The notes below the pieces were generated by a model. The model ran no database searches, had not been told where the DNA came from, and saw nothing but the letters and a program-made list of their open reading frames with translations. Shown piece by piece: positions 4,863-60,700 of a stretch of 64,000 bases of DNA. The translations under genes were made by a program, and so were the position numbers. Each line of letters opens with the position of its first letter. Position 1 is the stretch's first letter. The DNA is from a virus: the IMG/VR virus record IMGVR_UViG_3300047510_003583, positions 1-64,000 of that record, one strand, 5' to 3'.

Positions 4863-6461
4863 ATGGCAACAACTGAAAATTTAGTGCCGGTAGCATCTTC
4901 TATGCCTGGTAATTTTGGTATCGGGGATACGTTTTCTTGGGTAGGGGTGGAGAACCCGTACGGGAGACCGTTTTATGCTCGTGCTTCTTATATTACTAAT
5001 TTTTCAGATATGGCTATTAGTTTGTCAGCATCTGAGCTCTCCATTGGAGCAGTTACAATAAAAGATAATAACTCAGGAACAAATGCTGATGTCGTAAATG
5101 TCCCGGGGTACGGTGCAGGCCTTCAAGTACTTACACAGGACCTAGAATCTACAATTGACGATGTAACTATCGGCGATAAAGACGGTAATCTCGCTACAGT
5201 AAAACAGTCCACATCATCTTTAAATGTTAATGTAACAAATACTATTAATAGTATAACGACACCAGAAGCAACACAACTTGATGCTTTTGGAAGATTGAGA
5301 ACATCTTCCCCTTTAACTCTTTTTGATTCAAGTCATAGATATAGAGACAACAATCTCTGGTCATCGTTAACAGCTGTAGGTGCTACATATACCTTTAATC
5401 AAAATCAAGGTTTAGTGGATTTAACAGTTACTGCAGCATCTGGTTCTTCTGTTATTAGAGAGACTACAAAAGTATTTTCATATCAACCTGGCAAGTCTCT
5501 TCTGGTATTAAACACCTTTGTCCTTGCTCCTTCTGCAGCAGGTTTAAGACAAAGAACTGGTTACTTTGGAAATGACAATGGAATTTATTTTCAGATGGAT
5601 GATGAAGTTATAAGTTTTGTTGAAAGATCATTAGTTACTGGTACACTTTCAGAAACAATAGTGCCTTTATCTGGTTGGAATATTGACAAACTTGATGGAA
5701 CTGGACCTTCTGGATTTACTTTAGATGTAACAAAGGCTCAAATTTCTTGGATGGATATTGAATGGTTGGGGGTAGGTACAGTTCGCTGTGGGTTTGTAAT
5801 TGACGGAAAGTTTGTTCATTGTCATTCATTTCATCATGCTAACAGAATTGCTTCAACTTATATCACCACAGGTTCATTGCCTTTAAGATATGAAATTACT
5901 AATAAGGCAGCTACAGGGGTTACAAGAACCATGAAGCAGATATGCTCTACTGTGATATCTGAAGGTGGTTATGAATTAAGAGGCTTACAACAAACAATCG
6001 GAACAACTATAACCGCTCCTAAAGCTCTTGCGACAGCAGGAACCTTTTACCCTGTTGCTTCAATTAGGTTAAAAGCATCTCCAAATAGATTAGATGCAAT
6101 TGTCATATTGACAGCATTATCTTTAATGGGGGTAGGAACAGGTATTTATCAATGGAAGGTTTTTGCTAGTTCATCAACTACTGGAGGAGGTGCATGGCAA
6201 TCTGCAGGACTAGATTCTGCGGTGGAATATAAATTAGATGGTACAGCCGTTTCTGGTGGAAGAACTCTGGCAGAGGGATATTTTACATCTAATGCTCAAG
6301 GAGCAACAACAATTGATATTTTAAAAGAAGCTCTATTTAAATTTCAATTAGAAAGAGATGGTTTAACAGGAACCCCTTACGAGCTCTGTGTAGCAGTGGC
6401 AGCAAGTACCGATACAGAAGTAGTACACGGTTCAATGGATTGGGAAGAGATTAGTAGGTAG
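4863..6461 (+). CDS. Virion structural protein with the shared 'IEWxGxGxxR' domain
   Basis: 532 residues. The region DAFGRLRTSSPLTLFDS (about 140-156) starts a large beta domain. It continues through FGNDNGIYFQMDDE and then GTGPSGFTLDVTKAQ with WMDIEWLGVGTVRCGF (about 278-305). The same order of motifs occurs in the much larger proteins at 48606-54584 and 54588-57710, so these are homologous virion modules. The C terminus GSMDWEEISR resembles the ends of those proteins (MTWEEQ, LTWREQ). Between about 5280 and 6370 the codons favour GGA, AGA and TTG more than flanking genes do, a hint of mosaic origin. It is likely a tail fibre or capsid decoration subunit. Confidence 0.7.
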   Translation: MATTENLVPVASSMPGNFGIGDTFSWVGVENPYGRPFYARASYITNFSDMAISLSASELSIGAVTIKDNNSGTNADVVNVPGYGAGLQVLTQDLESTIDDVTIGDKDGNLATVKQSTSSLNVNVTNTINSITTPEATQLDAFGRLRTSSPLTLFDSSHRYRDNNLWSSLTAVGATYTFNQNQGLVDLTVTAASGSSVIRETTKVFSYQPGKSLLVLNTFVLAPSAAGLRQRTGYFGNDNGIYFQMDDEVISFVERSLVTGTLSETIVPLSGWNIDKLDGTGPSGFTLDVTKAQISWMDIEWLGVGTVRCGFVIDGKFVHCHSFHHANRIASTYITTGSLPLRYEITNKAATGVTRTMKQICSTVISEGGYELRGLQQTIGTTITAPKALATAGTFYPVASIRLKASPNRLDAIVILTALSLMGVGTGIYQWKVFASSSTTGGGAWQSAGLDSAVEYKLDGTAVSGGRTLAEGYFTSNAQGATTIDILKEALFKFQLERDGLTGTPYELCVAVAASTDTEVVHGSMDWEEISR

Positions 6462-22135: not shown

Positions 22136-22308
22136 TATATGAACGCAAAAACGTTCATGATCTTTAAAAATTAAAAAAGGACGTTTCAGTGGTGCTCAGG
22201 ATCGGTGAGTTCAGTGCGGCTAGGACGAGGTGCTAGCGACATAAGTAACCACCATGCATTTATTATGGTTCGAATCCATACTGGATTTTCAGACAAAGAA
22301 AAAACAAC

Positions 22309-22343: not shown

Positions 22344-22364
22344 ACTAAAGCGACTTTTTTTTAT

Positions 22365-22393
22365 AACCGCAACAATAGTTGCGGTTTTTTTTT
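22365..22393 (+). terminator. Rho-independent terminator
   Basis: AACCGCAAC-AATA-GTTGCGGTT (22365-22386) followed by an unbroken T run to 22393. Confidence 0.85.
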
Positions 22394-22419
22394 GCATTTT
22401 TTCCGAGTTCCTTTATACT
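22392..22419 (+). promoter_or_regulatory. Sigma70-like promoter TTGCAT-N16-TATACT
   Basis: TTGCAT at 22392-22397 overlaps the terminator T run. TATACT is at 22414-22419 and 6 nt later comes the ATG at 22426, matching the other early promoters of this phage. Confidence 0.6.
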
Positions 22420-22425
22420 TTAATA

Positions 22426-22689: not shown

Positions 22690-22690
22690 C

Positions 22691-22765
22691 GCGCGGTTAG
22701 CTTAGCGGTAGAGCAGGTCCTTTACACGGACAAGGTCGGGGGTTCAATCCCCTCACCGCGCACCA
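22691..22765 (+). tRNA. tRNA-Val (TAC), CCA encoded
   Basis: Acceptor GCGCGGT/ACCGCGC, anticodon arm GTCC-TTTACAC-GGAC, T-loop TTCAATC, A73 and CCA. It begins right after the SemiSWEET stop codon, likely on the same transcript. Confidence 0.92.
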
Positions 22766-42187: not shown

Positions 42188-45100
42188 TTAAATATCAAAC
42201 GCTGTTATAGTGTATGTAAGGGTATTTCTTGCGGTTGCATAACTAAAATTACTTTTAGCCGCTATTTGTTTCCAAAGAATTTTTGGTGGGGGTACCGCAG
42301 TTATAGAATCAATTAAAGACGTAGGCTGATACGGTGTAGCAAATGGTCCGTGTTCTATTTGAAACCCGTATATACCTATTTGACCTGCAGCTGCAGCCTG
42401 TAAATATAGCTCTCGGCGAATAGGTGGTGCGGGTGTTCTAAATGTCGTTATACAGCGTATCCAGTCATTTTTATAAAACTCTATACGAGATGTGTTACCT
42501 GTTACAACTCTTTTAGAAGCTAAATCAAAAATACCTGACTTAATACCATATTCACTTCTTAAAATAGATGGGAGCTCCCATTTAACAAAAGGTATATCGT
42601 AATATTTTAAAAAGACACTCATTGTGTATGTTTCGTTTACTCGAAGCTCCCCGCCTTGTACAGCTGGTTTAATATAATAATTGTTACTAGCTTGTTCGAC
42701 AGTTATAATTGCTGCATCTTTTGTACCAAACGGGCTATCTATTACATTAGCGTTTGTTCTAACGTTACCACCACCGATAGTCCAAGATGCAATTCTGTTA
42801 CTTTCTAAAACAATGTTACCAGAACTTTGCGGAACCTGGGTTAAGTTAAAGAAAGAAGCGTTTTTAATACCCTGACCTAATTGACCTAAATTACAATTAC
42901 CTGAAACAAATAAGTTACCGCCTGATAAAGCTAGTAGATGATGCTTACCTGCTGCAATATCATCCCATTTTCCGGGTATCTGTAACCATTGTCTGTTAAC
43001 AGGGTTAATAGTTGTTGTTCCTAGTTCACCGAAGTCATTTGAGCCAACTGCAAATAAATCCCCGGTTTCAGCTAATGCATAAGACGTTGTATCCCCAGCT
43101 TCTATTTTACGCCACGGGCTATATAAAGATTCTCCAGTTGCAGGATCTGTACCTGTAATTGGTGGTACCACCGTACACTCTTGCCACTCATAAACAGTAT
43201 CCACGTCTTCAACACCTAGCTCTCCTTTATCGTTCAAACCTGTGCTGTATATTTTACCGTCTCCGGCTAATCCAATAGAGTGCTTTATACCTGCTGCGAT
43301 ATCAAGCCACTCTGAACCACCAGGTAAAATATTCCACCCTCTAACAATTTTAGTATTTTCACCCATACCTAATTGACCCTCTTCATTTTGGCCTGTTACA
43401 TATAGCTTATTATCACTCTTTATACCTAAAGTATGGGTGATTCCCCCTACTATTTTTTTAAACACAGTACCATCTTCTTGTATTTGTTGAGAGATATCCC
43501 ATCTGTTTATAAAGTTTCTTGGTAAATCAGCTCTACCTAACTGAAAATCTCTATTATCTCCTGCTCCGTATAAATTGCCGTCAAAATCTACTGCAAAAGA
43601 ACAGTTATGGGTAGTAAATATATCTCTCCACTTACCTGGTATTTGTTTTGGTGTCGAAACAATTATTTCTCGTTCTGGTGACGTTGCAATTTGCCCGTAA
43701 GTGTTGTTACCGCCTGCATATAGGTCTGTGCCACTTAAAAGCAAGGCATGTGTTGCACCTAAAGAAATCTTTGTCCAACCACCTGTTAATGTTTGAGTTA
43801 AAACTAATACATCAGAAGAACCTCCATTTAGTAGTTGACCATTGGAGTTTCTTCCGGCAACAAAAATATTACTTAGAGGTACGTTAATTGTCACATCAAT
43901 AATAGGTAGTGGTGGCTCAACAATAGGTTGCCCTGTTTCAGGGTCTATAGAAGATACTCCTTCATAGATTGTTTTACCGTAAAAATTTTGGCCTAAAATA
44001 TACGGAAACACAGGTCTTTGAGTTGCAGGATCAATGGTAAGAAAATATGCATATGTACCGTTAGGGTATTCTGGTGTAACACAATAACGACCGTTGTAAG
44101 CGTCTAAATCACCATAACTAGGGTTATAGTTATAATCTTGTACAAAATACCCGAGGGGGTATGAACTTAGAGGAGGACGATATTTAGGTACACTTGATAA
44201 TACCCGGTAAGAACTACGTAAGGCAGTAACACGGGAAAGACTATCGTCTGGTTTTTTATACCCATAAGGTCCGTAAATCGGAAAACCGTCTAATGCTACA
44301 CCAAATATTTTTGAGTGACCGTTATAATGTTCAGTACTAAAATTATAATAATCATTTAAGCCTAAAAACTCTTCCCAAGTGTCGTTAAATAAAAATTCTC
44401 CAGTGTAGTATTTGTATAAATTATTTTTATCAGGGGCACCACCTGCAAAATCAATACCTGAAAGTTTTGTATAAACCAAATCAAAATTATATATATTGCG
44501 GTTGTTCGAGCCTGTTAACGTTTCTGTTGAACAAAAATTATTTAAATAAACACCGTTGCTTGCAATACCGATTATTCGGTTTTTAGTTTCTGCAGGAAAT
44601 CTTTCTCGAGTATTTTTACCACCGTTATACGGTAAAATAAAATTGTAACTTTGCGGTTCAACAGAAAAGCGATATTCGTTTGTAGGAAATGTTCCCTTTT
44701 TAAAGATAGTCGATGGTATGCTTTTAGCATCAATTATTAGATTACTTTGTTCGGAATCATATCTAGCATCAATGTCTAAATCAAAAAATATAGAGGCCGG
44801 GTTAAAGCCTGTAAAGGAAGGTGGTTTAGGTTTTTTTGCAACTGTATAAGAAGGTGTTAATATATTTTTTAAGGCTACTATTTCGGCATCAATATCAAAA
44901 AATTGCTGTTTATCTTTATTAGTTAAGTCAGTGCTGTTTTTATACGGTACATGTACTAAAAAATTAATATCATTAACCGGTATTTTATTAGCTATCTCAG
45001 TATTTGTTGTATTTGTATCTTGAAAATTATTGTAATATTCTACTGCGTAGCTTTGTGGTATGTAATCAGGGGTGTAAAAACTATCTACTCTTCTCTCTAA

Positions 45101-45739
45101 AACCATATAATACTCACTAACACGTAAATCAGATAAATGTAACCCTGTTGCTCGTAAAACTTTTGTAATTGGACTATAACTAACGTATCTTTTTGTTTCT
45201 TTATTAGTCTTTTTATCAATAACCCGAGACAATAATATAATACGATTTTCTTCCTGAGTAAATGCAAACGACTGTTGTTGATAGTAATCAATATTCTTTT
45301 TTGGTTCGAGTGTTATATTATAAGGGTATTCTCGAGATACAGTAAAATATAAATCATTATGTATTAAAGATATACTGTTATTGGTAATTTTAAAATATAT
45401 AAAATCGTCCGTCGTATATACATGAGAAACATTAATATTTTTATCTTTAAATGTTACATAATAGTTTGAGTCTTGAAAATACAAGTAAGCATAATCATTA
45501 AGCTTAAAAGAATCAATAACTCGTTTAGGACTTTTATATAATGATTGAATATTATTACCTTTTGTTAAAATAAGTCCGCTATCTTTCTGCAAAGATGCGT
45601 CTTGTATATTATTAAAAACGTCATATGTAAAATGGGTATACCCATCAGATGTTTGGGTGTATACACCTTTAAGGTTTAAAGCGTTTTTTAGCTTAATAGG
45701 AAAAATCGGTACCTGATCGATTGTTTTTATAGTAAGCAT
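42188..45739 (-). CDS. Giant virion protein: YHYH domain plus seven-repeat RCC1 propeller
   Basis: 1183 residues. About 470-590 carries YHYH-type motifs (STEHYNGHSKIFGVALDGFP, IYGPYGYKKPDDSL, YNGRYCVTPEYPNGTYAYF). About 625-960 has seven RCC1-like units: GRNSNGQLLNGG, GNNTYGQIATSP, GDNRDFQLGRAD, GQNEEGQLGMGE, GLNDKGELGVED, GSNDFGELGTTT and GNCNLGQLGQGI, one full seven-bladed propeller. The C-terminal 200 residues resemble a phage fibre jelly-roll domain (ASWTIGGGNVRTNANVI ... TYTMSVFLKYYDIPF). It starts 1 nt from the upstream gene. Host-recognition role inferred. Confidence 0.75.
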   Translation of the reverse strand: MLTIKTIDQVPIFPIKLKNALNLKGVYTQTSDGYTHFTYDVFNNIQDASLQKDSGLILTKGNNIQSLYKSPKRVIDSFKLNDYAYLYFQDSNYYVTFKDKNINVSHVYTTDDFIYFKITNNSISLIHNDLYFTVSREYPYNITLEPKKNIDYYQQQSFAFTQEENRIILLSRVIDKKTNKETKRYVSYSPITKVLRATGLHLSDLRVSEYYMVLERRVDSFYTPDYIPQSYAVEYYNNFQDTNTTNTEIANKIPVNDINFLVHVPYKNSTDLTNKDKQQFFDIDAEIVALKNILTPSYTVAKKPKPPSFTGFNPASIFFDLDIDARYDSEQSNLIIDAKSIPSTIFKKGTFPTNEYRFSVEPQSYNFILPYNGGKNTRERFPAETKNRIIGIASNGVYLNNFCSTETLTGSNNRNIYNFDLVYTKLSGIDFAGGAPDKNNLYKYYTGEFLFNDTWEEFLGLNDYYNFSTEHYNGHSKIFGVALDGFPIYGPYGYKKPDDSLSRVTALRSSYRVLSSVPKYRPPLSSYPLGYFVQDYNYNPSYGDLDAYNGRYCVTPEYPNGTYAYFLTIDPATQRPVFPYILGQNFYGKTIYEGVSSIDPETGQPIVEPPLPIIDVTINVPLSNIFVAGRNSNGQLLNGGSSDVLVLTQTLTGGWTKISLGATHALLLSGTDLYAGGNNTYGQIATSPEREIIVSTPKQIPGKWRDIFTTHNCSFAVDFDGNLYGAGDNRDFQLGRADLPRNFINRWDISQQIQEDGTVFKKIVGGITHTLGIKSDNKLYVTGQNEEGQLGMGENTKIVRGWNILPGGSEWLDIAAGIKHSIGLAGDGKIYSTGLNDKGELGVEDVDTVYEWQECTVVPPITGTDPATGESLYSPWRKIEAGDTTSYALAETGDLFAVGSNDFGELGTTTINPVNRQWLQIPGKWDDIAAGKHHLLALSGGNLFVSGNCNLGQLGQGIKNASFFNLTQVPQSSGNIVLESNRIASWTIGGGNVRTNANVIDSPFGTKDAAIITVEQASNNYYIKPAVQGGELRVNETYTMSVFLKYYDIPFVKWELPSILRSEYGIKSGIFDLASKRVVTGNTSRIEFYKNDWIRCITTFRTPAPPIRRELYLQAAAAGQIGIYGFQIEHGPFATPYQPTSLIDSITAVPPPKILWKQIAAKSNFSYATARNTLTYTITAFDI

Positions 45740-45740
45740 A

Positions 45741-48593
45741 TTATAATTTTATTAACTCCTTAAAGCCTAGACCTGTGTTTTGTGCAACGTTTGTACCTAA
45801 ATCGTTCTCGTAAACAATCCGGTTTGGTGGTTGTAGTGGTTTTTCACTAGTTAAAGTTGTAAGTTCTTTTTTATACTTATTATCTTTGCGAAGAACTGCT
45901 GCTTGTCCTTGAAAATCAAATACAAAGGTTGCATTGTTATTTACACCATAAAAATTTGTCTTTATGATGTCTTTTTGTGGTTTAGCTTTTAGTCCTATAG
46001 GGCCTATTTCTCGAGAGCAGCTACTATGAGCATCTGTGACAGCACTATATGCTGTAATAGAAGGATAAAAGGTTCTAGGATCAGTAAAAGTTGATCGAGT
46101 GTATGTATGACGAACGTTATAGTTTCGAGGATCTTCTAAATCTTTTACAGTTGGGTTTATTGTAAAAATAATATTCGAATCTCCTGTTAATGTAGTGTGT
46201 CTCGATATTGTTACTAAAGGTGTACCGTCTCCAAAGTCCCAGTCTATTCTCTCAATAGGAAACGAACCGGGTTTTGTGCTACGAGGGGTAAACTCTATTG
46301 TAAGTGGGCTAAACCCGTAATCTGTAGAAAGAACTGCAAAGTTAGCAGTAGGACCAATTTCATCTAAACGTACTGCATCATAATCTGCATCTTCATCATC
46401 GTAAATATAGTTATTCTCTAGATCTGCGGTTACTTTTACGCATAAGGACGGGGTATAAGTTTGTGGTACGGTATAGACGTGTTCTATTTCTGCATCTGCA
46501 CTGTAGCCCTCTCTTAACCAAAGTTTTGGGTTGTCTCCGGTTCTTAATGTTTCGTCCCATCTATATTTTTTCCACGAAGGGTCTGTTGAGCCCCAGCCTA
46601 TATCAATATAGGATTGAGCATATTGCTGCCACCAGCGAGCTTCAAAATAATATATTTTTTCTTTTTGAAGTAGTAAACTTTTTCGTTGTAGAGATGAACG
46701 ATCCCAATGCTTTTGACTTTCAGGGTATATAGTATCGCCGTTATACGGGTAATTACGACATATTAAGTAGTCAAACGGGTAATCTTGCAAGTCTGTTTCG
46801 TTAGGTTCTTCACAATATAGTAAAACAGAATCACAATCAGAACCTAATGAAAAGGTATGATAGCTTGTCTCTTGAGGTTTAAAGTACCATGAAATACGAT
46901 GCACTTTACCTTCGGGGTTGTTAATAGTGTTTATAGCAGGTACTGATGGTATAAGTGCTGAAAATCTCGAATTGTTAATATCTGTTAACAATAATAGTTG
47001 CGGTTCCCATACTAAAATATATTTGCCAAAAGGATCAGCATTTTCAAAGAAAACGTTATTGGCAGAAGTTTGTATATTTAAAGAATAGTTGTTTGTATCT
47101 AAAATAGAAAACCCGTATGTACAGGTGCCAGTATACTGCGCTGTACCGGTCATTGCTAAATAATACCACCCATCTCCTACATCTTGTATTTGATAAGCGG
47201 TAACATTACCCTTTTTTTGTAAAAGAATACCTGATTGAAGATCCCAGTCTGTAAAGCATGGGGTTGTTAAAAAGCACGGACCACCTAAATTTAGTCTTAC
47301 TTTAAATACGCTACCTAGAGGTTTAACAAAAATACTAGCTATTAAAGAGCTACCTGCATTAAAGACTTGACCCGTCGGTTGTGTGATACTGTAAAAGCTT
47401 TTTTCTGGTGGGCCCTGCATACGTATTAAACATGCATCTCTGGAAGATAAACTGGCTGTCGAATTAGGGGCAAACCCCGCATAGTTAATTGCATCTACAC
47501 CGTTTAATAACCAGTTAGAAGGGGCAAATTCAAGAGCAGGTTCAACTAATGTCGGAGCTATTCGAGACGGCTCTCTAAGCTTATTGCGACTGTAAATTAA
47601 ATTAGCATCGTTACGATCATATCCGTTTATATGAAGACTTTGTACAGGTAATAAGGAGACCGGGTTTACTGTCTGTATAACAGGGTCTCTAACACCGCCT
47701 TCTTGTATAGTTAAATTAAACTGCTCTCTTGTAAGATTAGCTGATGCTTGCGGAACGTTTAATTTGCTTGCTAAGTCATCTGTATAATTTAACTTTTTAA
47801 AAATAATTTTTAAGCTTGTTGCACAAGAAGAAAACGTATTTACAGAAGATACTGTACCTGCAAATTCTGGATTACGAGATAAAAATGTAGTAGGGGCTTC
47901 TTCTCGTAAATAAAGACGTCTATTAAAACTTGGTATAAGGCTCGGAGGGGTTGATTTTAGTGTTTCTACGGTTGCTAATAAATCTGGGGGTGTTGTATAT
48001 ACCTGGGCCCAGCGCTCGTACAATACAGGTCTTTGAGATGAATCCGTATATTCAATTGTACCAATATTATCACCAAACTGCAGCAGGCTACCTGAAAGTT
48101 CTTTTACCATGTTAATCGCACCTCTTGGAGGCACAACGCTAAGTAAATTTACAACAGTTTCCGGGTATTCAAAAATATCTAAATCGTTATCTAATGAATC
48201 AGAAATTTTAATTGCTTCATCAGCAGCTGAATAGTAATGAGTCAGGGTGCTTCTAACCCTATAGCCATTTGTGGCTTGTCCCGCCCATGACCAAACTGCT
48301 CCATATCGGTCTTCAAAAGGGTGAAACGGCTCTCTAGGGTTAAAGGACGTTATATTATTTGTTTCAGTGTAATAGTTATCTGCATTAAACGTTAAGAAAG
48401 TTTGTAAACGAAATCTAGGAACAACATCCGTGGTAATAAGATAACGTACTTTTGTTACCGGTGCATATCCCGAAACAAAATTGTTTATAGATTCTAGAGG
48501 TTTAAAAGATACAGGTAGCCCTCGATCCCAATTGTAACCGTCTTCTACTGTTAAACCGCTTATAACTGCAAAATTACTACGTAGTATTATCAC
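45741..48593 (-). CDS. Giant virion protein with fibre jelly-roll, PA14-like and PKD domains
   Basis: 950 residues with a GTG start; no ATG nearby fits better. About 354-530 is a phage-fibre jelly roll (APSNWLLNGVDAINYAGFAP ... SSLIASIFVKPLGSVFKVRL). About 555-670 is PA14-like (HRISWYFKPQETSYHTFSLG ... KEKIYYFEARWWQQYAQSYI), a fold that often binds sugars. About 745-850 is a PKD domain (ANFAVLSTDYGFSPLTIEFT ... RIDWDFGDGTPL). It follows the 48606 gene by 12 nt on the same operon. Adhesin function inferred from domains. Confidence 0.7.
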   Translation of the reverse strand: MIILRSNFAVISGLTVEDGYNWDRGLPVSFKPLESINNFVSGYAPVTKVRYLITTDVVPRFRLQTFLTFNADNYYTETNNITSFNPREPFHPFEDRYGAVWSWAGQATNGYRVRSTLTHYYSAADEAIKISDSLDNDLDIFEYPETVVNLLSVVPPRGAINMVKELSGSLLQFGDNIGTIEYTDSSQRPVLYERWAQVYTTPPDLLATVETLKSTPPSLIPSFNRRLYLREEAPTTFLSRNPEFAGTVSSVNTFSSCATSLKIIFKKLNYTDDLASKLNVPQASANLTREQFNLTIQEGGVRDPVIQTVNPVSLLPVQSLHINGYDRNDANLIYSRNKLREPSRIAPTLVEPALEFAPSNWLLNGVDAINYAGFAPNSTASLSSRDACLIRMQGPPEKSFYSITQPTGQVFNAGSSLIASIFVKPLGSVFKVRLNLGGPCFLTTPCFTDWDLQSGILLQKKGNVTAYQIQDVGDGWYYLAMTGTAQYTGTCTYGFSILDTNNYSLNIQTSANNVFFENADPFGKYILVWEPQLLLLTDINNSRFSALIPSVPAINTINNPEGKVHRISWYFKPQETSYHTFSLGSDCDSVLLYCEEPNETDLQDYPFDYLICRNYPYNGDTIYPESQKHWDRSSLQRKSLLLQKEKIYYFEARWWQQYAQSYIDIGWGSTDPSWKKYRWDETLRTGDNPKLWLREGYSADAEIEHVYTVPQTYTPSLCVKVTADLENNYIYDDEDADYDAVRLDEIGPTANFAVLSTDYGFSPLTIEFTPRSTKPGSFPIERIDWDFGDGTPLVTISRHTTLTGDSNIIFTINPTVKDLEDPRNYNVRHTYTRSTFTDPRTFYPSITAYSAVTDAHSSCSREIGPIGLKAKPQKDIIKTNFYGVNNNATFVFDFQGQAAVLRKDNKYKKELTTLTSEKPLQPPNRIVYENDLGTNVAQNTGLGFKELIKL

Positions 48594-48605
48594 AATAATA
48601 TTTAA

Positions 48606-51600
48606 TTACTGTTCACGCCATGTTAAACCGGCATATACCTTAGCTTTTGGATAAACCGGTGTAGGCGGCAGTACTAATCTTCTTACAAATGTAGCATCCT
48701 TACTTAAATATGCCGATAGTACCGTACTTCGGGTTTCACAGTATATAGGGGATCCTGATAAAGGTAACACTTGACCGAGAGTTAACTTAAATCTATTATC
48801 TTTTGCGGCAGTTATTAATGCAATATTATTAATAAGAGGGTGTCTATTGTTTATTGAAGTCCACGTTGATGTGTATAAATCTTCAGTTGACCCCGTGCAA
48901 GCTAATAATTCGGTAGTTAAATGCTGTAATTCCCAACGACTGTTAATCTCGTTCCAATATAACTTAACCCCTGTAGCTCCAATGACCCCTGTGTAAAGTT
49001 TTTTAGGTACGGTGTATTCATAGCTACTAGCGGCACCAAAAGCCGCTACTGTTATACTTTCGCTACTTGCAGTAGAAAACGTTACTGTGTATGTATTTAC
49101 TTTAAACCCTGATAATTCTGTTGGTAAAGATACAGACGAAATACCATATCTATCTAAGGTACCGTTGTACGCAAAATTAGCACTTAGAGACGTTAAAGGG
49201 GTATTATTGACCATTACAAATGTCTGAGCGGTGGGGTCATAACCTGCCCCTGTTAAGCTTAAAGATATACTCGTTAACGTATAACGCGTGACACTTGTTT
49301 CTGGGCCAGTTTCATACAAAGAGCTTAACCCCGCCAAGGGAGTACTCCAATTTATACTAATAACCTCTCTAGCATTAGCAAAAACCTGTATATCACCCGG
49401 TACTGTTACTGGCGAGGCATCAAAACCAGGATATATAACACTAACTATATCTTTTTCAGCAGATAAACCAAGTTGACCGTATGTATTGTTACCGGCAGTA
49501 AATAAACTTGTACCGCATAAAATAGCTGTGTGGGTATCACCGCATATAGCATCAAGATCTTTGTTTGTAACAACAACCTTTTGAGGGGTGTTGTAGTTTT
49601 GATACGAATTTAAGCCTAACTGACCGTATTGGTTGTCTCCAGTAGCGTATAATACGTGATATATATTATCAGAAGATAATAATAAAGTGTGGTTACCTCT
49701 GGCTGCAGCTTTTGTCCAACCTTGGTTATTGCCTATTAAGGTAAATAGGTTGCGGTTATTATTATCCCCTAAACCTAATTGACCGCTTGTATTAAGCCCG
49801 CAGCTATATGCATTATAAGTGGATAACGATATAACTCTAGAAGTTGTTATTGTCGGAAAGTCATCATCTTCTACAACAGAAACAACCCTTACCGGTACAC
49901 TTGATAGAGGCCCGGCGCTAAGAGCTATTGTATGTTGGTTACCGCATACTATATCCTTCCAGTTACCGGGGTTAGCAGGATTGAGGTCATTTAATCTCTG
50001 AAATGTTGTATAACTATTGCCATACGAGCCAATTCCTAGCTGCCCGTATGTGTTATCCCCTGTTGCGTACCAAACATTTTGATTAGAAAATCTTGTTTTT
50101 GCAAATGTACATGCACTTCCAGGTACAATCTGGGTGTATAATGTTTCTGATAACGGGGTAAAAGCTGTAACATTATTTGTATGGCCTAAACCTAACTGAC
50201 CGTAACCGTTTTCTCCTGATACAAACCATGTATCTTCTGTAGCTGATAATAAAAATGTGTTATTTTTACCGCATACAACGTCTTTAAATGATCCTGTTAA
50301 AGATCTAAACAACGAAACACTAGGTATAGATAGTGGTAGACCTAACTGACCGTGACTATTCGATCCGGCTACAAAGACTTGGTTGTTATTATCAATAACA
50401 ATAACATGTCGATCCCCAACACCAATTTTTTTATACGATCTTTGTAATTCAGTAAACTTATATTTGTTACTGCTGTCGTTATTTAAACCAAACTGAGAAT
50501 TTAAATTGTAACCTGTAGCCGCAATGTCTTTTGGTTTAAAGTCATTAATGTCAAATCCCGATACGGTGGTCCGAGCTGTAATATAAACAGAATTCCATGG
50601 CTGAGATTCTTTTTTCTTTAATGTATTTGAAAGATATTCTGCTACAAGACCAAAATACGGGCTTATATCATACTGGATAACTTCACCTTTAGGTACGTAA
50701 AACGCTGCTATTGTACGAGTAGCCATATTTTCGCGATATTTACCGTTTTTAATATCAGAAGCGGTTATAAACCCTTTGTCATAAAGTGGTTGTGATGATT
50801 GAAAATCTAGTTTTGCCGCAGTACCGGGCATGTCTTTGAGTACTACAAAGTTAGGAGGCTGGGTTAACGCATTACTTTTACCTGGGTACACACACGATAA
50901 ACCAGGTGTACCGGTTAACATCCTGCTTGTAACAATATCAACAGGTGTTAAGCGTACAGAAGAAAGTGGTATCCATGTCGGGCTCACAGTTTGTTGATCC
51001 TGTGTCCAGTAATCAGATATAACTACACAGTCTTTAATACTTGCTCCTTTATGTCCAATAAAAACTAAACGCCACGGTTCGCCAATTTCTCTTGGTTGAG
51101 CACCTGATCTATTACCTTTAGGTGGTAAATCCTTCCACCCGTTAACATTATCAATACCTTTAGTTTGAGGTTGAAGAAACCCTATAGACATGTGAGTGTT
51201 TACTGCAGATGCATGAGCGAAAAGAATACCTGGTCGACCTGCATCGTATGTGAAGGGTTGAAATTTAGTATTTTTTCTTTGGTTTGCAGTTTGGTTTCGT
51301 ATATCGTACCAAGGTTCTCTAAGGGCTACTCTTGAAAGACCTCGAGGATATATTTGTAAAGTAGGTCCTCCACCTTCAGTTAATGAAACTCTATCAATTG
51401 GAAGACCATATTGTGGGAACGCACCTCTGTTTTTAACATTATTAACACTAGGTCTATAAGGGTACGGATAAACGTTTATATTTGTAAGAGGTATATAATC
51501 TGGTAAAGTATCTTTTATTATATAAACTTTACTATTTGTAAGCCCTGTAAATAAGAAAGGCATATACACAGTGTTAACATTTTGTGTATACGGTACACCA

Positions 51601-54584
51601 AAAGATCCATTAACTTTCAGTGTAAATGCATAATCTGATAATATTTCTTGAACTTGGTATTTTTTAGTTCTATCGTTTGTTTGTGCTAACTGATTATCCG
51701 GCACAGTAGGTTGCTCTACGGCGTGTACAAAAGTAAATACTTCCCCTTTCTTAAGCATGTGTGGTAACTCTGTGCAAATAACCGGTATGGGGTTAGTTGT
51801 AGGGTCAGGGGAGCCCATATTGTCAATGTACCGGACATAATTTCGTAAAAAGTAACGACCTATATAACCTTCGTATGTAGGTGTATTTGCGTAATAGCGA
51901 TCTTCTCTTAACGGTCCTTGATGGGAAGACCCTAAATTACAGCTAATCCAATACTCCTCTTTACCATTAAAGGTTTCGCGAGATATTGCCTGGCGGTCAA
52001 GTATTTCTAAATTAAATTCAAACATAGACCCGGTTACATAAGGGTATACACTGACAAACGCATGACCAAAATTGTTTCTAGATGAATTTGTAGGGTTTAG
52101 TTCGGGTCCAAGAGTCGCCTGATCCTCCCATACGGTATGAGGACCGGTTGTTCCAGTTTCAGCCCCGATACCGTAACCCCCGGGCATACGTTCATTGAAC
52201 ATATTCATGTTTGCCCAGCCACTTAATGGGCTAGACAGCCATATTACGTCTCCTTTTACGCATGTTTTAAACCAGTCATCAGGTCCCTTTGTAGGGTCAA
52301 AGTCTCCTACAGCAGAAATATAGGTATTAAAAATACCTGTTCTAGTGCGAGGGGAATTAACCCAGGGGTCCCCGGTTGGGTTTCTTTCATCGTAAACAAC
52401 AAAATCATTATCTTCAACCTTACCGGGCGGTAATCTAGAATCAGACCATAGACCTACTACCCCTGGGTAATCGTCAGATGTTGCAAATGGGTCCCACCAT
52501 TTAAATTGAAATCTATTACATGCAATATTTGTATCGCTTTGAAAAATACGAGCTCCAACTAAAACTTCTCGGGCTGCTGAACCTGAAATACCAAATGTAC
52601 CCGATAAGGCCCGTAAATTGTACGCTCCCCATTCTTCGTGTGCTCCTGCTGAGTCTGTTTCATCGTAACCTGTATAACCGCTATCTTCTGCAGATAAGAG
52701 AAAAAAGGCTGCAGGGTTATTTGCTAAAATAGTTCCAGAAATTGACGGGTGTGGTATATTAAGTGGTTGCAACTCCGCGCCTTTTGTAATACCTTGTACC
52801 AAGTTACTTGTTGGTTTCCAAACTACTTCTACTAAGCAGTTTTCAGATGTACTAATATTAATAAGGGACGGTAATATTAGCTTACTATTAGGTATCATTT
52901 CACCAAATGAGCTTTTTATTGCATCTGTTGTTGAAATACCTACTAGAGGTACCGGGTCTTGACTTACTTCTTTTAAAATGTCAGTGTAACGGGTATTTTG
53001 TATCATTGTGCCTTCGTCGGCCCCTTCAATATACGACGAAACACCGTACTTCTTAAGAGAAACCCGTGCACCTGCTCGTGCAAAAGTAAAATACTTAATT
53101 TGCATTACCGGGCTATTTAAAACCGGTTCTTTAAATAACTGACCGCCTTCAATTTCGTGTAGACATACCCATTCAGCCTTGTCATTATCTTGGTTAAGGT
53201 ATGCAAAAAATCTAGCGCCAGCTGCACCGTACCAACTAAACTCTATTTTGTACATTGTTACCTTATCAAAATCTATAACCGATCCTGAGGGGCCTTTGCC
53301 ATCAACTGTATCATTCTTAAAGTCTTTTTGATAGACTTTAGTTAACTCTGGCGCATCCGGGTCAATACTAACAAATTTAGTTGCGGCCGGTGAAACGCAA
53401 TAAAATGGATCATCAGGGTATGTACCTAATGTGCTTGTTGATTGAACATTGTTATAGTCGGTCTGTATGCCCCATGTTTTTACCGTTAAATTACTATCCC
53501 CGCGGTAATGTCTACGACGGTTAACAGAAAAAGCCACTTCACTTAACGTACCCTGTCTTCCATTACCGGATAATTCAAAATAATATGCGTCACTTGCGTT
53601 ACCTACACCCCAACGCGTGATATTACCTGGAGGGCTTTCATAAAAATCTTCATTACCTAATTCATACGCTTGTAAAACCTGCTCATCAGATAAACTATAG
53701 GCGTTGTCAACACGAGCTTTAATACCGAACGTAAATACATTAGCGCGGCCCGGTAGATACTTAAATGATCTTTGAGTTTCCAGCATTTGAAAACCGAAAC
53801 CTGCAGGGTGCAGGCCTGGAAATAAAGACTCGATCTGTGGACCAAGAAAATAAGGAGCACTTTCTGCAGCTAACTCTACAAAAAGCTCAACACAGGATTC
53901 GTCTCCGCGAAACTGCAAACCAGTGCCGCGATAATAGTTCGGAAAATCAGGTAGTACATATTTATCAATAGCGGCGGATACCTCAGGTGTTATTGTTCTT
54001 GGAGAGTTAAACCACGTACTACTTTCACCCCACGGGTATGACATAGTGTACCAGCCACGGTGTTGCCAAATCACTGAATTGATACCGTACCTTGTTACCT
54101 CTTCAATTTGTGTTGATGTTTCTTCTTCCCGAGGTATACCTAACATTGATATATCTACTTCTGTTTGTATACCAAAATCGTTTTTTTCTTTTTCAATTAT
54201 TATATACCGGTCTATAGGTAAATTAATAGAAAGAGCGACATCTTTGTAATTTTGTTTTTTACGAACCGGCCCGACTATAGAGCTACGTTTTACAATATAA
54301 CCGTTACTACAAAGTGTTGTGTAATTTGTTGTATCAATAGGTATACTAAATCTACGACCGTCAATCACGGTTGCAGGATACTCAATAAAGTTTATAAAAG
54401 GATTAGTACCGTTATCATAAACGGTAATTACGTCTAAATCTCCGTATAAACCGTGGTTTTTTTCAGTAGCAATTACCGTAGCACTACCCGGTACAACAGC
54501 AGAAATAGCTATTTTTGTAAATGTTGTATTTTCGCCGGGTAAATATTTTCTATTAAACGGTACTGTTACTTTGGTATCTGCCAT
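48606..54584 (-). CDS. Giant virion protein (1992 aa): shared virion domain plus RCC1 propeller
   Basis: Residues about 120-560 hold the domain shared with 54588-57710 and 4863-6461 (TEVDISMLGIPREEET, GKGPSGSVIDFDKVTMYKIE, FSWYGAAGARFFAYL). Residues about 1350-1710 contain seven RCC1 units: GYNLNSQFGLNN, GSNSHGQLGLPL, GENGYGQLGLGH, GDNTYGQLGIGS, GLNTSGQLGLGD, GDNQYGQLGLNS and GNNTYGQLGLSA, a complete propeller. The C terminus ends KVYAGLTWREQ, like the other shared-domain proteins (W-x-E-x). It starts 3 nt after the upstream stop. Role probably host-contacting tail or capsid fibre. Confidence 0.78.
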   Translation of the reverse strand: MADTKVTVPFNRKYLPGENTTFTKIAISAVVPGSATVIATEKNHGLYGDLDVITVYDNGTNPFINFIEYPATVIDGRRFSIPIDTTNYTTLCSNGYIVKRSSIVGPVRKKQNYKDVALSINLPIDRYIIIEKEKNDFGIQTEVDISMLGIPREEETSTQIEEVTRYGINSVIWQHRGWYTMSYPWGESSTWFNSPRTITPEVSAAIDKYVLPDFPNYYRGTGLQFRGDESCVELFVELAAESAPYFLGPQIESLFPGLHPAGFGFQMLETQRSFKYLPGRANVFTFGIKARVDNAYSLSDEQVLQAYELGNEDFYESPPGNITRWGVGNASDAYYFELSGNGRQGTLSEVAFSVNRRRHYRGDSNLTVKTWGIQTDYNNVQSTSTLGTYPDDPFYCVSPAATKFVSIDPDAPELTKVYQKDFKNDTVDGKGPSGSVIDFDKVTMYKIEFSWYGAAGARFFAYLNQDNDKAEWVCLHEIEGGQLFKEPVLNSPVMQIKYFTFARAGARVSLKKYGVSSYIEGADEGTMIQNTRYTDILKEVSQDPVPLVGISTTDAIKSSFGEMIPNSKLILPSLINISTSENCLVEVVWKPTSNLVQGITKGAELQPLNIPHPSISGTILANNPAAFFLLSAEDSGYTGYDETDSAGAHEEWGAYNLRALSGTFGISGSAAREVLVGARIFQSDTNIACNRFQFKWWDPFATSDDYPGVVGLWSDSRLPPGKVEDNDFVVYDERNPTGDPWVNSPRTRTGIFNTYISAVGDFDPTKGPDDWFKTCVKGDVIWLSSPLSGWANMNMFNERMPGGYGIGAETGTTGPHTVWEDQATLGPELNPTNSSRNNFGHAFVSVYPYVTGSMFEFNLEILDRQAISRETFNGKEEYWISCNLGSSHQGPLREDRYYANTPTYEGYIGRYFLRNYVRYIDNMGSPDPTTNPIPVICTELPHMLKKGEVFTFVHAVEQPTVPDNQLAQTNDRTKKYQVQEILSDYAFTLKVNGSFGVPYTQNVNTVYMPFLFTGLTNSKVYIIKDTLPDYIPLTNINVYPYPYRPSVNNVKNRGAFPQYGLPIDRVSLTEGGGPTLQIYPRGLSRVALREPWYDIRNQTANQRKNTKFQPFTYDAGRPGILFAHASAVNTHMSIGFLQPQTKGIDNVNGWKDLPPKGNRSGAQPREIGEPWRLVFIGHKGASIKDCVVISDYWTQDQQTVSPTWIPLSSVRLTPVDIVTSRMLTGTPGLSCVYPGKSNALTQPPNFVVLKDMPGTAAKLDFQSSQPLYDKGFITASDIKNGKYRENMATRTIAAFYVPKGEVIQYDISPYFGLVAEYLSNTLKKKESQPWNSVYITARTTVSGFDINDFKPKDIAATGYNLNSQFGLNNDSSNKYKFTELQRSYKKIGVGDRHVIVIDNNNQVFVAGSNSHGQLGLPLSIPSVSLFRSLTGSFKDVVCGKNNTFLLSATEDTWFVSGENGYGQLGLGHTNNVTAFTPLSETLYTQIVPGSACTFAKTRFSNQNVWYATGDNTYGQLGIGSYGNSYTTFQRLNDLNPANPGNWKDIVCGNQHTIALSAGPLSSVPVRVVSVVEDDDFPTITTSRVISLSTYNAYSCGLNTSGQLGLGDNNNRNLFTLIGNNQGWTKAAARGNHTLLLSSDNIYHVLYATGDNQYGQLGLNSYQNYNTPQKVVVTNKDLDAICGDTHTAILCGTSLFTAGNNTYGQLGLSAEKDIVSVIYPGFDASPVTVPGDIQVFANAREVISINWSTPLAGLSSLYETGPETSVTRYTLTSISLSLTGAGYDPTAQTFVMVNNTPLTSLSANFAYNGTLDRYGISSVSLPTELSGFKVNTYTVTFSTASSESITVAAFGAASSYEYTVPKKLYTGVIGATGVKLYWNEINSRWELQHLTTELLACTGSTEDLYTSTWTSINNRHPLINNIALITAAKDNRFKLTLGQVLPLSGSPIYCETRSTVLSAYLSKDATFVRRLVLPPTPVYPKAKVYAGLTWREQ

Positions 54585-54587: not shown

Positions 54588-57500
54588 CTACTGTTCCTCC
54601 CATGTCATGCTACCTCCACCAACAGCTATTGTATCCTTACCGTCGAGTGCACGTGCTGTTAAGAATAACATATCAGGGTCTCCACCTTCTACAAGCGGAA
54701 AAGATAGATATTGCTTGTCAAAGCCAAAGTATGGTGATAGATCTAGATCAACGCCGCCGGTTGCAACGTTAAATGAAGCTAATACCTCTCCTGTGGCTGG
54801 TACTGGTGTTCTCTGCTCATATATATCTTCTTCTACAGCTATTAATGGTCGATCTTCTTGCCATGCAGCTGTTGAAGCATTATAAATAATTTCACTATCC
54901 CCTCTCATAGGTAGTTCAGGTATAAATGCCCCACGTTTTAATGTGCGTCTGACACCCGTTTGCCCGACTCCGTCGTAATCACTCTCGTCGTTACATCCAT
55001 TTACTGTCTTAGGGTTACCTGCAGCGAGTCTTCTAAAGGAGAAGGTAGCATTAAACATCGGTATACCGCCAATTAGCTGATAGTTATCTTCTAATACATC
55101 GGCTTCACTACTTAAATCCTCACAGCCAAACGATTTAAGTTTTAGTATACCCTTAATGCCATAGAATGAACCAAGCACGGCTTTGCCTAGATTCTCTCGA
55201 ATAAGCGGGATAACGCAGTTGTTTCTGTTAAAATATACCACTGTTGAAAAGAGTACTTCTTCTGTACTAGCAGGTATTTCAAATGCTGCTGTCCACTTAT
55301 TTACTAGATCAAATCTTGATAAGCCTTCTTTCCACGCTCTAGCTGTTAGAGGAGGAATTGAATATGCATACGGACCGTATTGTGTCCCGCCTTGTGTTAT
55401 GTAGTTCCAAGATGAATGGTAATCTATACCTGCTTGAAGCCCTGGGCCAGGGTTTGTAGCGTTTACGGTTAGTGATCGTGCAGGTGTCGTTCCATCCACA
55501 CTTATTTGAGAGGTATGCCATATAAACGCTGGTAGTAGATTAGATGGAGATGCGATACCTGACAAGGATGCAAAATACGGGTTTTTTACAAGTTGTAGTA
55601 AGACAGGCTTACTTGTACCAAAACTTAAACGGGTAGGATAAACCTGGGAACGGTTACGTATATTGTTAATTTGATTTTTAACACGAATACCTAGTACAGG
55701 TGTTCCACGACCTGTTACTGCTGTTAGCTGAACACTGACAGCTGAAACACCGACAGGTTTGTTCTCTGTAATAAATGCCAAACGACCATCGTGAGATATA
55801 TCACTAATCGATACACCTGGATAAACTTGATTACCGTTTATGTCGGTGCCGTACAAGCGTGCACCAATATGCCAACTTGAGAAAATACCTCTTGTTTCAA
55901 ACCCTGTTGTGCCTTCTATTGGACGGACCTCAACACCAGATAAGAAGTTTACAACTTCATTATTTTGTAAATTATTAAGATCGACAATGCCGTTATTTAC
56001 TTCATTAGCACTCAAAGTGTTAACAGTAAGTACTTGTCTGTCTGGGTAAATTCTTTTTTCGTTATCTGTTGCAACGGTATTAATATTTACAGTACCTTTA
56101 TCGCCACCGTCAATAAGGTAAGATGCACCGTATTTGTTTACACGCTGAACAATTTTATCTCCATCCTCAATGTTACCTGCACCACCAATATTGAGATAGG
56201 TAAACGGTAGAGTAGGGTTACCTAAACTTGGTGACCCGATTTGGTTTGATACTCGTAAATGGTGTATGCGTACCCAGCGAGCTAAACTATTACTTACAGG
56301 TACATATGCTAAAAACTGAGCACCGACAGCGCCGTACCAGCTGTACTCAATTTTATACATAGTTACTTTTGTGAAATCGAGATTTTTGACTGATTGAACA
56401 TATACGTCTTGGCCGTCCTCTTGTACAACCTGTCCCGTAACGTTACCATCAAAATAATCGCTCCAGCGTCTTAGGTTGCTCTCTCCGTTCATGTTGTCAA
56501 AGTTAAAACATGAACGCGGAACACGGTATTCGTAAACGTTTGCGTACTCTTTTTTAACAGCAATTGGTTTATTAGCAACACCGCTGCCGTTGTCGAACGG
56601 AGCCCAGGCATAATACAGATCTTGTAAAAATTGATCCCAACGAGTACGTCCTACACTTGTTGAACCAAAGTTTTTCCAATGGTAGTCATAAAACGCAACT
56701 AAATCTGGGGGAGGTAACTCCTGACCCGTTTCATAACCTACGTAAGGCATAATATACGTTATATTTGGCGGGCTTTGATTTTGATCTGCAGAGGTTGCCA
56801 GCATTGTTGTATCAAACAAAGCAGCATGGAATAATACTAATTTATCTCTAACAATAATAGCGTGTTCCCCTGCAATACCAGCATAAAGACGAGCTGTTTG
56901 TGCGTTTGGATGACTGCCTGTAACGACATCAGGTGACCACTGACCTGGTCGTGCATAAATGGGGTTAGGTGGTATCGAATTTGTACGTCTGACTACTAAA
57001 AAGTTGTCCCGGTTACCGTCTCCGCGAGCTTCAAAATAATAACCGTTTAAGTTATCAAAACATCCCCACTTCTTACATGTTGAGTTGCGATTATATACTG
57101 TAATACTCACACCCTCACCACCAGCATCTGTATCGTCAATGGTTGTGGCTTTACTTAGCCCGGCGGGTGCGCCTTCTAATGATGTGTCTAAACGGACGCC
57201 AAATGTACCAGAACTTACACGGCCCGGCTGATATCTAAAATAACGTTTTGATGTTAACCGAGAAAAATAAAGTATACCTCTTCCTGGTTCATAAAAACCG
57301 AGAGGGCAGCTTATTTGTGCTGCTGATTCTGCAGATAAGTGTTTAACGCCCCAAACGTTTGCTAAATTACCTGTAATTTGAGGATAACTTGTCCATTCTA
57401 AAGGATTAACATCATACGTATTAACGTCACCGAAAATACCTAAAGCTACTTCAGAACGCGGAATACCAAGCAAAGATAAACTTACTTGCGTAGCTTCTTT

Positions 57501-57710
57501 ATTTACCTCTCTTACCGGAACTGGTAATTGATCTGTTGCAACTACAACAGGTACTGACGAGGCTGCTACTGTAGGTCCTAAATCTAGAGGTGTACCCCCG
57601 ATTGTGCGTACTGTTATTTTCTTTGTTACGCCATTATTAACAATAGGTAGTAAATCTGCAGGGTCTAAGCCTTCAGCCGTTGGTAAAAGAGAGATAGGTA
57701 GATCAGCCAT
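54588..57710 (-). CDS. Large virion/fibre protein with shared domain
   Basis: 1040 residues. MADLPISLLPTAEGLDPADL (then LPIVNNGVTKK) is a phage-fibre N terminus. About 80-530 is the shared virion domain (ATQVSLSLLGIPRSEVALGI, KRYFRYQPGRVSSGTFGVRL, NGYYFEARGDGNRDNFLVVR, VTMYKIEYSWYGAVGAQFLA). The C-terminal 500 residues are beta-rich, ending GGGSMTWEEQ. A late-type promoter precedes it, making it the first gene of a unit that continues to 36672. It is probably a tail or capsid fibre; homology to its two relatives is directly visible. Confidence 0.75.
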   Translation of the reverse strand: MADLPISLLPTAEGLDPADLLPIVNNGVTKKITVRTIGGTPLDLGPTVAASSVPVVVATDQLPVPVREVNKEATQVSLSLLGIPRSEVALGIFGDVNTYDVNPLEWTSYPQITGNLANVWGVKHLSAESAAQISCPLGFYEPGRGILYFSRLTSKRYFRYQPGRVSSGTFGVRLDTSLEGAPAGLSKATTIDDTDAGGEGVSITVYNRNSTCKKWGCFDNLNGYYFEARGDGNRDNFLVVRRTNSIPPNPIYARPGQWSPDVVTGSHPNAQTARLYAGIAGEHAIIVRDKLVLFHAALFDTTMLATSADQNQSPPNITYIMPYVGYETGQELPPPDLVAFYDYHWKNFGSTSVGRTRWDQFLQDLYYAWAPFDNGSGVANKPIAVKKEYANVYEYRVPRSCFNFDNMNGESNLRRWSDYFDGNVTGQVVQEDGQDVYVQSVKNLDFTKVTMYKIEYSWYGAVGAQFLAYVPVSNSLARWVRIHHLRVSNQIGSPSLGNPTLPFTYLNIGGAGNIEDGDKIVQRVNKYGASYLIDGGDKGTVNINTVATDNEKRIYPDRQVLTVNTLSANEVNNGIVDLNNLQNNEVVNFLSGVEVRPIEGTTGFETRGIFSSWHIGARLYGTDINGNQVYPGVSISDISHDGRLAFITENKPVGVSAVSVQLTAVTGRGTPVLGIRVKNQINNIRNRSQVYPTRLSFGTSKPVLLQLVKNPYFASLSGIASPSNLLPAFIWHTSQISVDGTTPARSLTVNATNPGPGLQAGIDYHSSWNYITQGGTQYGPYAYSIPPLTARAWKEGLSRFDLVNKWTAAFEIPASTEEVLFSTVVYFNRNNCVIPLIRENLGKAVLGSFYGIKGILKLKSFGCEDLSSEADVLEDNYQLIGGIPMFNATFSFRRLAAGNPKTVNGCNDESDYDGVGQTGVRRTLKRGAFIPELPMRGDSEIIYNASTAAWQEDRPLIAVEEDIYEQRTPVPATGEVLASFNVATGGVDLDLSPYFGFDKQYLSFPLVEGGDPDMLFLTARALDGKDTIAVGGGSMTWEEQ

Positions 57711-57735: not shown

Positions 57736-60700
57736 TTATTGCTCAACTTCAATAAAGTGACCATCATCTAAATTATAATTATCATAATAGTCGGTAATAA
57801 ACGACTCTTGTAACATATAATCATTGTTTTCTTGTAATAGTACTACGTTTTCGTAAGGAAGTATTACTTCAATATCGTCTAGCTCAAAAGTAGGTTTTTG
57901 TTTTAGATATATGTTAATCATAACTCCGTAAACAGTTTTAACAATTTTTTTAGCAAACGGTTTAAAGTTTTTTGCTAACTGAGGCTGAGCATCAACAATT
58001 AATGTAAGTACAGCTGTTTTAGAATCATTATTATAAGCAAACGCTGTAGATGTAATATTTGTTATATACAAGTTTTTAAGAGCTTGAAACTGAGTTAGGT
58101 TAGTATCTTTTAACGGGTAAACCCGCTTGTAAGTAAAGTCTATTAAGTTGAAAGCGTATAGTATTGGAGTAAAACCTTGATATACTTCTCCGTCATAATA
58201 TGGCAGTATATAACTAAAATAAATTTGTTGTTCATTAGGTTCAAGCCAAGAACCTATGTATCGATAATCGCTAAATGTGTGTAATATTGCGTGTTTTGAT
58301 TTAGCAATGTTATAAACAGGTACTGGGTCAAACCCTATTAGAAATGGTTTTGAGTCACTGTTAATCCCGTAAATTAAATTGTAATCATAAGCTTGTGGTA
58401 TATTAACACCAGAGACAACAAATGTCTTTGAGTTAAAAACGTCCGTAACAACATAGTCTAAATCGGGTAGTATGCCGTTTGTTTTAAAGAGTTTAAATTT
58501 AGAGTTTTTCTTTAAAAAGTGATCTGTAATTGTAGTGAATGTTGCAGAGTAGATGTACGTGTGTTTATATTTTTCATCGTTATATGCATCAAAATCGGCT
58601 TCTCCGTCTCCCCAGACAATGGTAACCGGTGCACTGTTATTGGTTTTAATACTAACCCCGGAAAGTACTCCTTCAGGAGGCATGTTGTGGCTAAGAACGG
58701 GTATTGAGAATTCATGAGCTGAAGATGAAGTAGTACCAGCGAATTTCGTCGAGTAACCATCTCCCCAGAAAATTTCAGTTTCCATTCCCGATAGTGTATC
58801 AACTGTTAGCTTATTAATAGAGGCAGGGGTATTATGTTTTAGTGTCCAGTATGTAACATAATCTCCGTACTTATCTATAAGCATATTTGTAATAGATATT
58901 TTGTTAACTATACGTGGTGGGAATTCAACGTTTTGTAAAAGTAGCCCTGTAGGTATCGAAGTTGGTACTTCAATTTGCAATGCACCGTTTTCTTTTTCGT
59001 AGTCTATAAAGTTAGAATCTTCGAGTATATTCTTAAAGACGCCTTTTTCATAATCATAATCTAGACGTAACAATATCATTCCTCCCTTCATTAAGAGGAA
59101 CAAAACATCATAAAAAACTTCAATGTCTTGTATTTCGTTGCTAGTTAGATATTTGTGTAGAGTTGTATATTTGAAATTATCATATATAGACGATAACATA
59201 AACGACGCAGTTTTTACATCGTCACCCAGATTTTTTACCCATACAGACCCTTCAACAATTTTTTGTTCTTTTAACGAACTGGTAATATTTGGTTTATAAA
59301 GACTGTATTGATTTCCGTAAATGTCAGTTGTCCATTTATATAGAATGTTATCGTCAAGGTAGCCTATTTGATTTGTCTTCCAGTAATCTGTATTAATAAG
59401 CCCTCGAAAATCTGGTTTAAAGTTTTTCGAAACTACCCATGTATCATTTTTTGGGCCGTTCCAGGGGGATTGTCTTGTTTTTGTAGTTGTAACCCCGGTG
59501 TTAGAAACTCGGGATGATTCTTCTTTGGCCTGATAACCTAAGAATTTCGGATATGTTTTTGTTATTTCAGGACTTGTTAAACTAGTTGAAACGTACGGAG
59601 CTTCTTTAAGCCAACTACTATTTGTTGTATCATAGACATAACCACCACTGAGTGTTTCTTTTGATAGGCCACGGCTTGCAATACCGTAACTATTACTAAA
59701 GTTTGATGCAGAAATATTTGGAGCTTCAAACGTGTTTATTGGTTTTGTTTTTATGTTGTTTGTGGCATATTTGAGTAAGCCGAGATTTTTATAGGTAAAA
59801 TAACCTCCAAGATCTTCGTGAGAAAAAAGAGAATTAATATTATTAATGCTTGCGATCGTGGGGTAGTGAGCATTAGTTAAGTTAGCGTAATCAAAATCAG
59901 GTGTAAAGGGAGTACCGGTAATTGCGTTAACATTGCTACCAGAAACGTATAAGAAGTTAGGATTAATAGTACTGAGTGTAAAATTAATAGATAAGTCTGT
60001 TTTAGACGTAAAAAATACATATTTTACCATCTCCCCGGCGTTTGTTTGTTCGATTACCATGTCTGATATACATGGGGTAGGGTATGTAGTTGTAGCTTTT
60101 GTTAGATAATCACTATAGTTAGTATTTTCAGTTATTGGTATATTTTTATCTACAACAATGTTTATTTTTTTCCATTTTTTAGAATTGTCTGTTAAGTTGT
60201 AATAGATTGGTTGTATCCAGTTTATAATATTGTTACCAGCGTTAGTGTATGAAATTTCTTGACCCCCGTAGATATAATCGTTTGCTGGTCGCGGTTGAGA
60301 ATAAAAATTATATTCATCTACAAATTCAAATTCATTATTTTGAACAAGTAAGCCGTTAGCAGGGGCTGTTTTTACCCAAAACGGTTTCATGTGAGGGGCT
60401 GAGCTTAACGGTCTATATGCACAAATATCCCATCCGGAAACGGGTACATTTAACATAAAGTTTGCTTTAGGGTATTCTCTAACTGCGTCGACTTTTGTTT
60501 CTCGTTGCAACGGAATACATGTAACAGCAGGGCATGCTGGTGTAAAGGTAACTGTACCATAGCTGCTTCCCGCATAATGTCTTATTGTAAGACTCTGTAT
60601 TGAGTATTTACCGGTTGTTACCGGCACAAAAGGTAATGTTACACCATAGTTTGCAGGGATTTGCCCTGGGGGAGATGTATAATTAAAAATTGTTGGACCT

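Follow-up and report, generated by a model that had tools for sequence, protein, structure and literature searches.

RCC1 repeats in two large proteins of the baseplate/adhesin module of an uncultured T4-like myovirus

Introduction

Described RCC1 and RCC1-like domains (PF00415, PF13540 and PF25390) include those of UVR8, RPGR, HERC1 and human RCC1. The repeats reported here, in two phage proteins designated P0001 and P0002, share with them the repeat sequence, the spacing of about 50 residues and, by Foldseek, the fold. On the other hand, identity in structural alignments was only about 16–26% (16–22% to human RCC1), and the repeats lie inside very large phage proteins, with the last repeat apparently split in P0001 and one half-repeat short in P0002.

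RCC1 repeats are likewise present in phrog_4219, phrog_7220 and phrog_16766, GAP_001 of phage GAP32, the arrays of 121Q and PBEC04, phAPEC6 proteins and W70_237-239, and in SP-15, LIS04, LIBA6276 and the tail fibre of Littlefix. Eleven RCC1 proteins are encoded by phAPEC6 (PMC7247149). Virions of both GAP32 (PMC5259590) and W70 (PMC11370258) were found to contain RCC1 proteins, and several of the phage RCC1 proteins thus belong to virions or tail operons. The preliminary description of the present locus suggested that a eukaryotic fold in a phage is a surprise. This was overstated, as RCC1 proteins occur in many phages, have their own PHROGs and are present in some virions (PMC5259590, PMC11370258).

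Many of the known phage proteins are stand-alone, with about 370–400 aa, whereas in P0001 and P0002 they form part of baseplate-module proteins of 1183 and 1992 aa. Their companions in these proteins are a YHYH domain and a phrog_1645-like region. YHYH proteins have been reported among the candidates for host recognition encoded in the baseplate operon (PMC7029224). YHYH is predicted to be a tail-associated, metal-dependent hydrolase (PMC7824862). Neither partner was seen among the phage RCC1 relatives examined. The domain partners are unusual, phage RCC1 itself being already known.

Results

The phage and the gene neighbourhood

The stretch of DNA analysed (the window) comprised positions 1–64,000 of a virus record totalling 106,794 bases. 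The same phage was present in a second record, identical across window positions 32191–64000 (the stretch compared), whose coordinates suggest a longer extent. Among viral contigs, the only relatives of P0001 and P0004 were in this second record (100% identical), and megablast with the region gave no match.

Both RCC1 genes were open reading frames on the minus strand:

42188..45739, minus strand: P0001, baseplate/adhesin protein of 1183 aa; YHYH domain after the N-terminal region, then RCC1 repeats with a module inside the last repeat
45741..48593, minus strand: P0003, structural protein of 950 aa encoded between P0002 and P0001; matches to PKD and tail proteins weak
48606..54584, minus strand: P0002, baseplate/adhesin protein of 1992 aa; N-terminal part like phrog_1645, then RCC1 repeats and a C-terminal region
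L009:548-4942, record position about 63547-67941, minus strand: 1464-aa protein with a PKD domain

The order of genes on this strand was gp25, gp6-like, the 1464-aa PKD protein, P0005, P0004, P0002, P0003, P0001, more large proteins, and P0008, a right-handed beta-helix protein that ended the run. The tail operon named in the preliminary description was borne out by the gp25 gene (Pfam GPW_gp25, E 1.6e-15) and the gp6-like wedge gene (phrog_219, E 4e-38), both upstream on the same strand and outside the window. The record also encoded a terminase that shared about 35% identity with known T4-like terminases. Genes for sheath, DNA polymerase, clamp and recombinase were recognised in it by inspection. 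The RCC1 genes belong to the baseplate/adhesin module of an uncultured T4-like myovirus.

Several other features were observed. The 1464-aa protein, between the gp6-like protein and P0005, carried NHL-like propeller repeats by eye, and the baseplate module may on that account hold several kinds of propeller. NHL-like repeats were also seen by eye in P0007 (window 36672–39485, minus strand), which had a C-terminal BP74_N domain (residues 828–935, E 5e-24). P0009 (window 35420–36622, minus strand) carried at its end a K1-lyase_C domain (E 1.5e-7), a domain type known from the C-terminus of a capsule lyase. P0005 (window 57736–63534, minus strand; 1932 aa) matched nothing in Pfam, PHROGs or the phage collection. 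On the plus strand, a tmRNA gene (tag ADEELLLAA) and 13 tRNA genes were found at window 15178–15637 and 19615–22765, and the reading frame at window 1–2052 showed by eye a stretch of TP repeats and, internally, some four repeats of about 150 residues (PDPxxY...).

Both sets of repeats belong to the RCC1 family

The seven units of the GxNxxGQLG type earlier counted in each protein were confirmed with a relaxed pattern. They lay at residues 629, 677, 727, 783, 834, 899 and 947 of P0001, and at 1358, 1407, 1457, 1509, 1596, 1649 and 1698 of P0002. Composition-preserving shuffles gave means of 0.037 (P0001) and 0.025 (P0002) motifs, and none of the 5000 reached seven. The motif was absent from eight other proteins of the cluster.

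Pfam matched both proteins to WD40_RLD, the RCC1-like domain (E 3e-54 for P0001 and 6e-49 for P0002), and to RCC1, PF00415 (E 5e-21 and 6.5e-35). PF25390, PF00415 and PF13540 all scored above the gathering threshold in both, and PF00415 had no match in any of 14 control genomes. The profiles thus placed the repeats in RCC1 and not elsewhere, as first described. A sequence search of the PDB returned RPGR, UVR8, HERC1, HERC2 and RCC1. By Pfam, this search and Foldseek, the repeats of P0001 and P0002 are of the RCC1 family.

The two propellers were only about 27–30% identical, so that one is not a recent copy of the other, in agreement with the preliminary description.

For counting blades, each repeat was divided into a front half, the strand bearing GxNxxGQLG, and a back half, WxxIxxGxxHTxAL. 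Repeats from other viral contigs, 100 in all and with those of the window excluded, served to build a blade HMM.

In P0001 the last repeat is apparently split by a second module

The features of P0001 were the following:

44024..44641, minus strand: YHYH domain, residues 367-572 (Pfam PF14240, E 7.8e-32)
42866..43870, minus strand: RCC1 repeats, residues 624-958; all seven front halves, and back halves one to six
42284..42847, minus strand: all-beta module within the seventh repeat, residues ~965-1152 (AlphaFold strands)
42227..42280, minus strand: seventh-repeat back half at the C-terminus, WKQIAAKSNFSYATAR, residues ~1154-1171 (blade HMM, weak)

The YHYH domain, already noted as a neighbour of the repeats, matched YHYH regions of cyanophage proteins, some of which are annotated as the gp7 baseplate wedge. 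It was about 38% identical to the YHYH baseplate proteins of cyanophages and pelagimyophages, which come from the same type of operon (PMC7029224). None of the YHYH matches examined had RCC1 repeats C-terminal to the YHYH domain.

The blade HMM found seven front and seven back halves, the last back half being weak. It read WKQIAAKSNFSYAT at residues 1156–1169 and scored 4.3 bits (E about 0.01, searched in the C-terminal piece), and its position and sequence fit. As it lies about 195 residues past the seventh motif, the last repeat is apparently split by the all-beta module. AlphaFold placed strands of this module at residues 993–1130 (pLDDT mostly 50–70), and it had no significant match in Pfam, PDB or the phage collection. 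It contains GFQIEHGPFATPYQPT, which may be a carbohydrate-binding motif.

The P0001 model was RCC1-like by Foldseek (UVR8, E 8e-19), but did not superpose as a single closed ring (rmsd about 9 Å). Judged from its half-repeats, closure of the P0001 propeller is likely.

P0002 is one half-repeat short

The repeats of P0002 and a loop within them were located as follows:

49455..50525, minus strand: RCC1 repeats, residues 1354-1710; seven front and six back halves
49821..49910, minus strand: additional loop, about 30 residues long, separating front halves four and five, ~1559-1588 (gap in the P0001/P0002 alignment)

The blade HMM detected all seven front halves of P0002, whereas the back halves numbered six, and a seventh was not found with it in the rest of the protein. 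AlphaFold gave six blades at residues 1381–1710 (pLDDT mostly 80–95), with the region of the first repeat below 50. The six back halves and the six confident blades would suit an open or six-bladed array in place of a seven-bladed ring, an arrangement that fits either function considered below. The six modelled blades, however, superposed on the seven-bladed UVR8 at 2.2 Å over 338 columns, the fit to be expected if the geometry is seven-bladed and one position is empty, and the segment preceding the first repeat (WNSVYITARTTVSGFDI) is by eye about the right length for the missing strands. We consider an open or six-bladed array somewhat doubtful.

The two complete seven-bladed propellers of the preliminary description therefore stand in part. 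P0001 has the seven front and seven back halves, with the last one split and weak, and P0002 has six back halves. The step from seven motifs to seven blades does not hold, for P0002 is one half-repeat short and the last repeat of P0001 is apparently interrupted by a module that was missed earlier. The proposed AlphaFold check upheld the RCC1 fold by Foldseek; a closed ring appeared in neither model, the alignment of 21 sequences being too shallow to settle closure.

A candidate Fn3-like domain at the C-terminus of P0002, seen by eye, had no match and was dropped.

P0002 and its paralogues without RCC1 repeats

Three proteins matched phrog_1645: P0002, its neighbour P0004, and a 532-aa protein at the other end of the window.

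52797..53618, minus strand: phrog_1645-like virion structural region of P0002, residues 323-596 (E 2e-22)
48609..48632, minus strand: AGLTWREQ, C-terminus of P0002; counterparts GSMTWEEQ (P0004) and GSMDWEEISR (protein of 4863-6461)
54588..57710, minus strand: P0004, 1040-aa paralogue of P0002 without RCC1 repeats (BLASTP E 3e-20 to P0002)
4863..6461, plus strand: third paralogue, 532 aa, near full-length phrog_1645 virion structural protein without RCC1 repeats (E 1.4e-138)

The phrog_1645 virion proteins of cyanophages S-TIM5 and S-CBS4 resembled the N-terminal part of P0002 and P0004, and most of the 532-aa paralogue. P0002 differed from them in its RCC1 block and in an extra C-terminal region ahead of the terminal motif.

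A W-x-E motif ended all three paralogues (TWREQ, TWEEQ and DWEEISR). The match between P0002 and P0004 extended to about residue 1338, its last stretch being weak (E 0.005). Beyond this point P0002 continued with the RCC1 repeats, about 270 more residues and then the terminal motif. The simplest account would be that a structural gene was duplicated and received an RCC1 block.

These paralogues bear on the possibility that the propellers serve inside the baseplate as structural spacers or subunit contacts, with no ligand on the host. The phrog_1645 part and the large neighbours do resemble structural scaffolding, and many propellers mediate protein-protein contacts. The RCC1 block, on the other hand, is an add-on in one of the three paralogues and is very unlike the propeller of P0001; a variable binding module would account for this better than a conserved contact would. 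A purely structural role thus appears unlikely.

RCC1 genes in other phages

In six cultured phages (S-SRM01, LIBA6276, Jenst, BUCT-ZZ01, SP-15 and LIS04), RCC1 genes were found with genes for baseplate, tail fibre, pectate-lyase spike, adhesion or lysis (endolysin). This favoured an adhesin role. Against it, large phages such as Serratia phage BF had stand-alone RCC1 arrays that were not next to named tail genes. Aphanizomenon phage Yong-DA was rejected as support, the neighbours of its RCC1 genes being sugar and export genes, and Marinobacter PS6 was uninformative.

The neighbourhoods in uncultured contigs were mixed, with tail genes near the repeats in L041 and L040 and other genes in L032 and L023. 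The repeats were fused to CBM_5_12 and tail-fibre families in L041, and to an FGE-sulfatase-type domain in L032. The Littlefix protein (a Pseudomonas phage tail fibre) was among the BFVD fold matches. Three further contigs (L025, L024 and L039) encoded RCC1 proteins of about 2300–3750 aa with 27–51 motifs, far above one propeller.

Between fEgEco12 and Ecwhy_1, which are of one species, seven gene products were less than 50% identical, and two of these were of the RCC1 type (PMC13070987). We infer that this is a pattern commoner for host-recognition genes.

Discussion

The RCC1 family assignment, the domain order, the paralogy and the gene neighbourhood of P0001 and P0002 are established. We interpret the two as virion proteins of a T4-like baseplate/adhesin module, whose RCC1 domains would be exposed protein- or glycan-binding modules gripping the host surface, and give this reading a probability of about 0.7. 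Their presence in the virion, exposure and ligand binding are suggested by the gene context and the domain company, namely the fusion of RCC1 repeats to YHYH in P0001 and to a phrog_1645 virion region in P0002, within a baseplate operon. The missing canonical half-repeat of P0002 and the lack of a closed ring in either model count against it.

According to this adhesin reading, the carrier parts would anchor in the baseplate, and the exposed propellers would bind a surface protein or glycan, aiding the hold of the tail tip on the host. In P0002, a paralogue of P0004 that would have gained its RCC1 block close to the C-terminus, the older phrog_1645 part would attach to the virion with the propeller projecting. 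In P0001 the propeller follows the YHYH domain, with a second module apparently set into its last repeat.

The label 'regulator of chromosome condensation' points to another role, that of binding or condensing DNA in the head or at ejection. This is the published reading for the RCC1 proteins of phAPEC6 and W70, given in the available text of both papers without direct evidence (PMC7247149, PMC11370258), and PHROGs files phrog_4219, phrog_7220 and phrog_16766 under DNA metabolism. The label, however, rests on similarity to eukaryotic RCC1, and the solved structures nearest to the present repeats are those of UVR8, RPGR and the domains of HERC1 and HERC2. Moreover, the repeats here are fused to baseplate-module proteins and YHYH inside a baseplate operon. 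A DNA role therefore appears very improbable. For a eukaryotic-type function (Ran exchange or chromatin binding), a bacterial virus offers no plausible Ran or nucleosome partner.

The addition of repeats to a baseplate-module protein, with a paralogue lacking them adjoining, leads us to reread phage RCC1 proteins as tail adhesins. The chromosome-packing label that they usually carry, in several genome papers among others, is probably wrong. The chances are about even for the wider proposal, that tailed phages generally use RCC1 propellers as a scaffold for receptor binding, placed on unrelated baseplate and fibre carriers, and that the 'chromosome condensation' label is wrong for the whole class. 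The case of P0002 is useful evidence against a common phage annotation, and it yields a testable prediction on host range.
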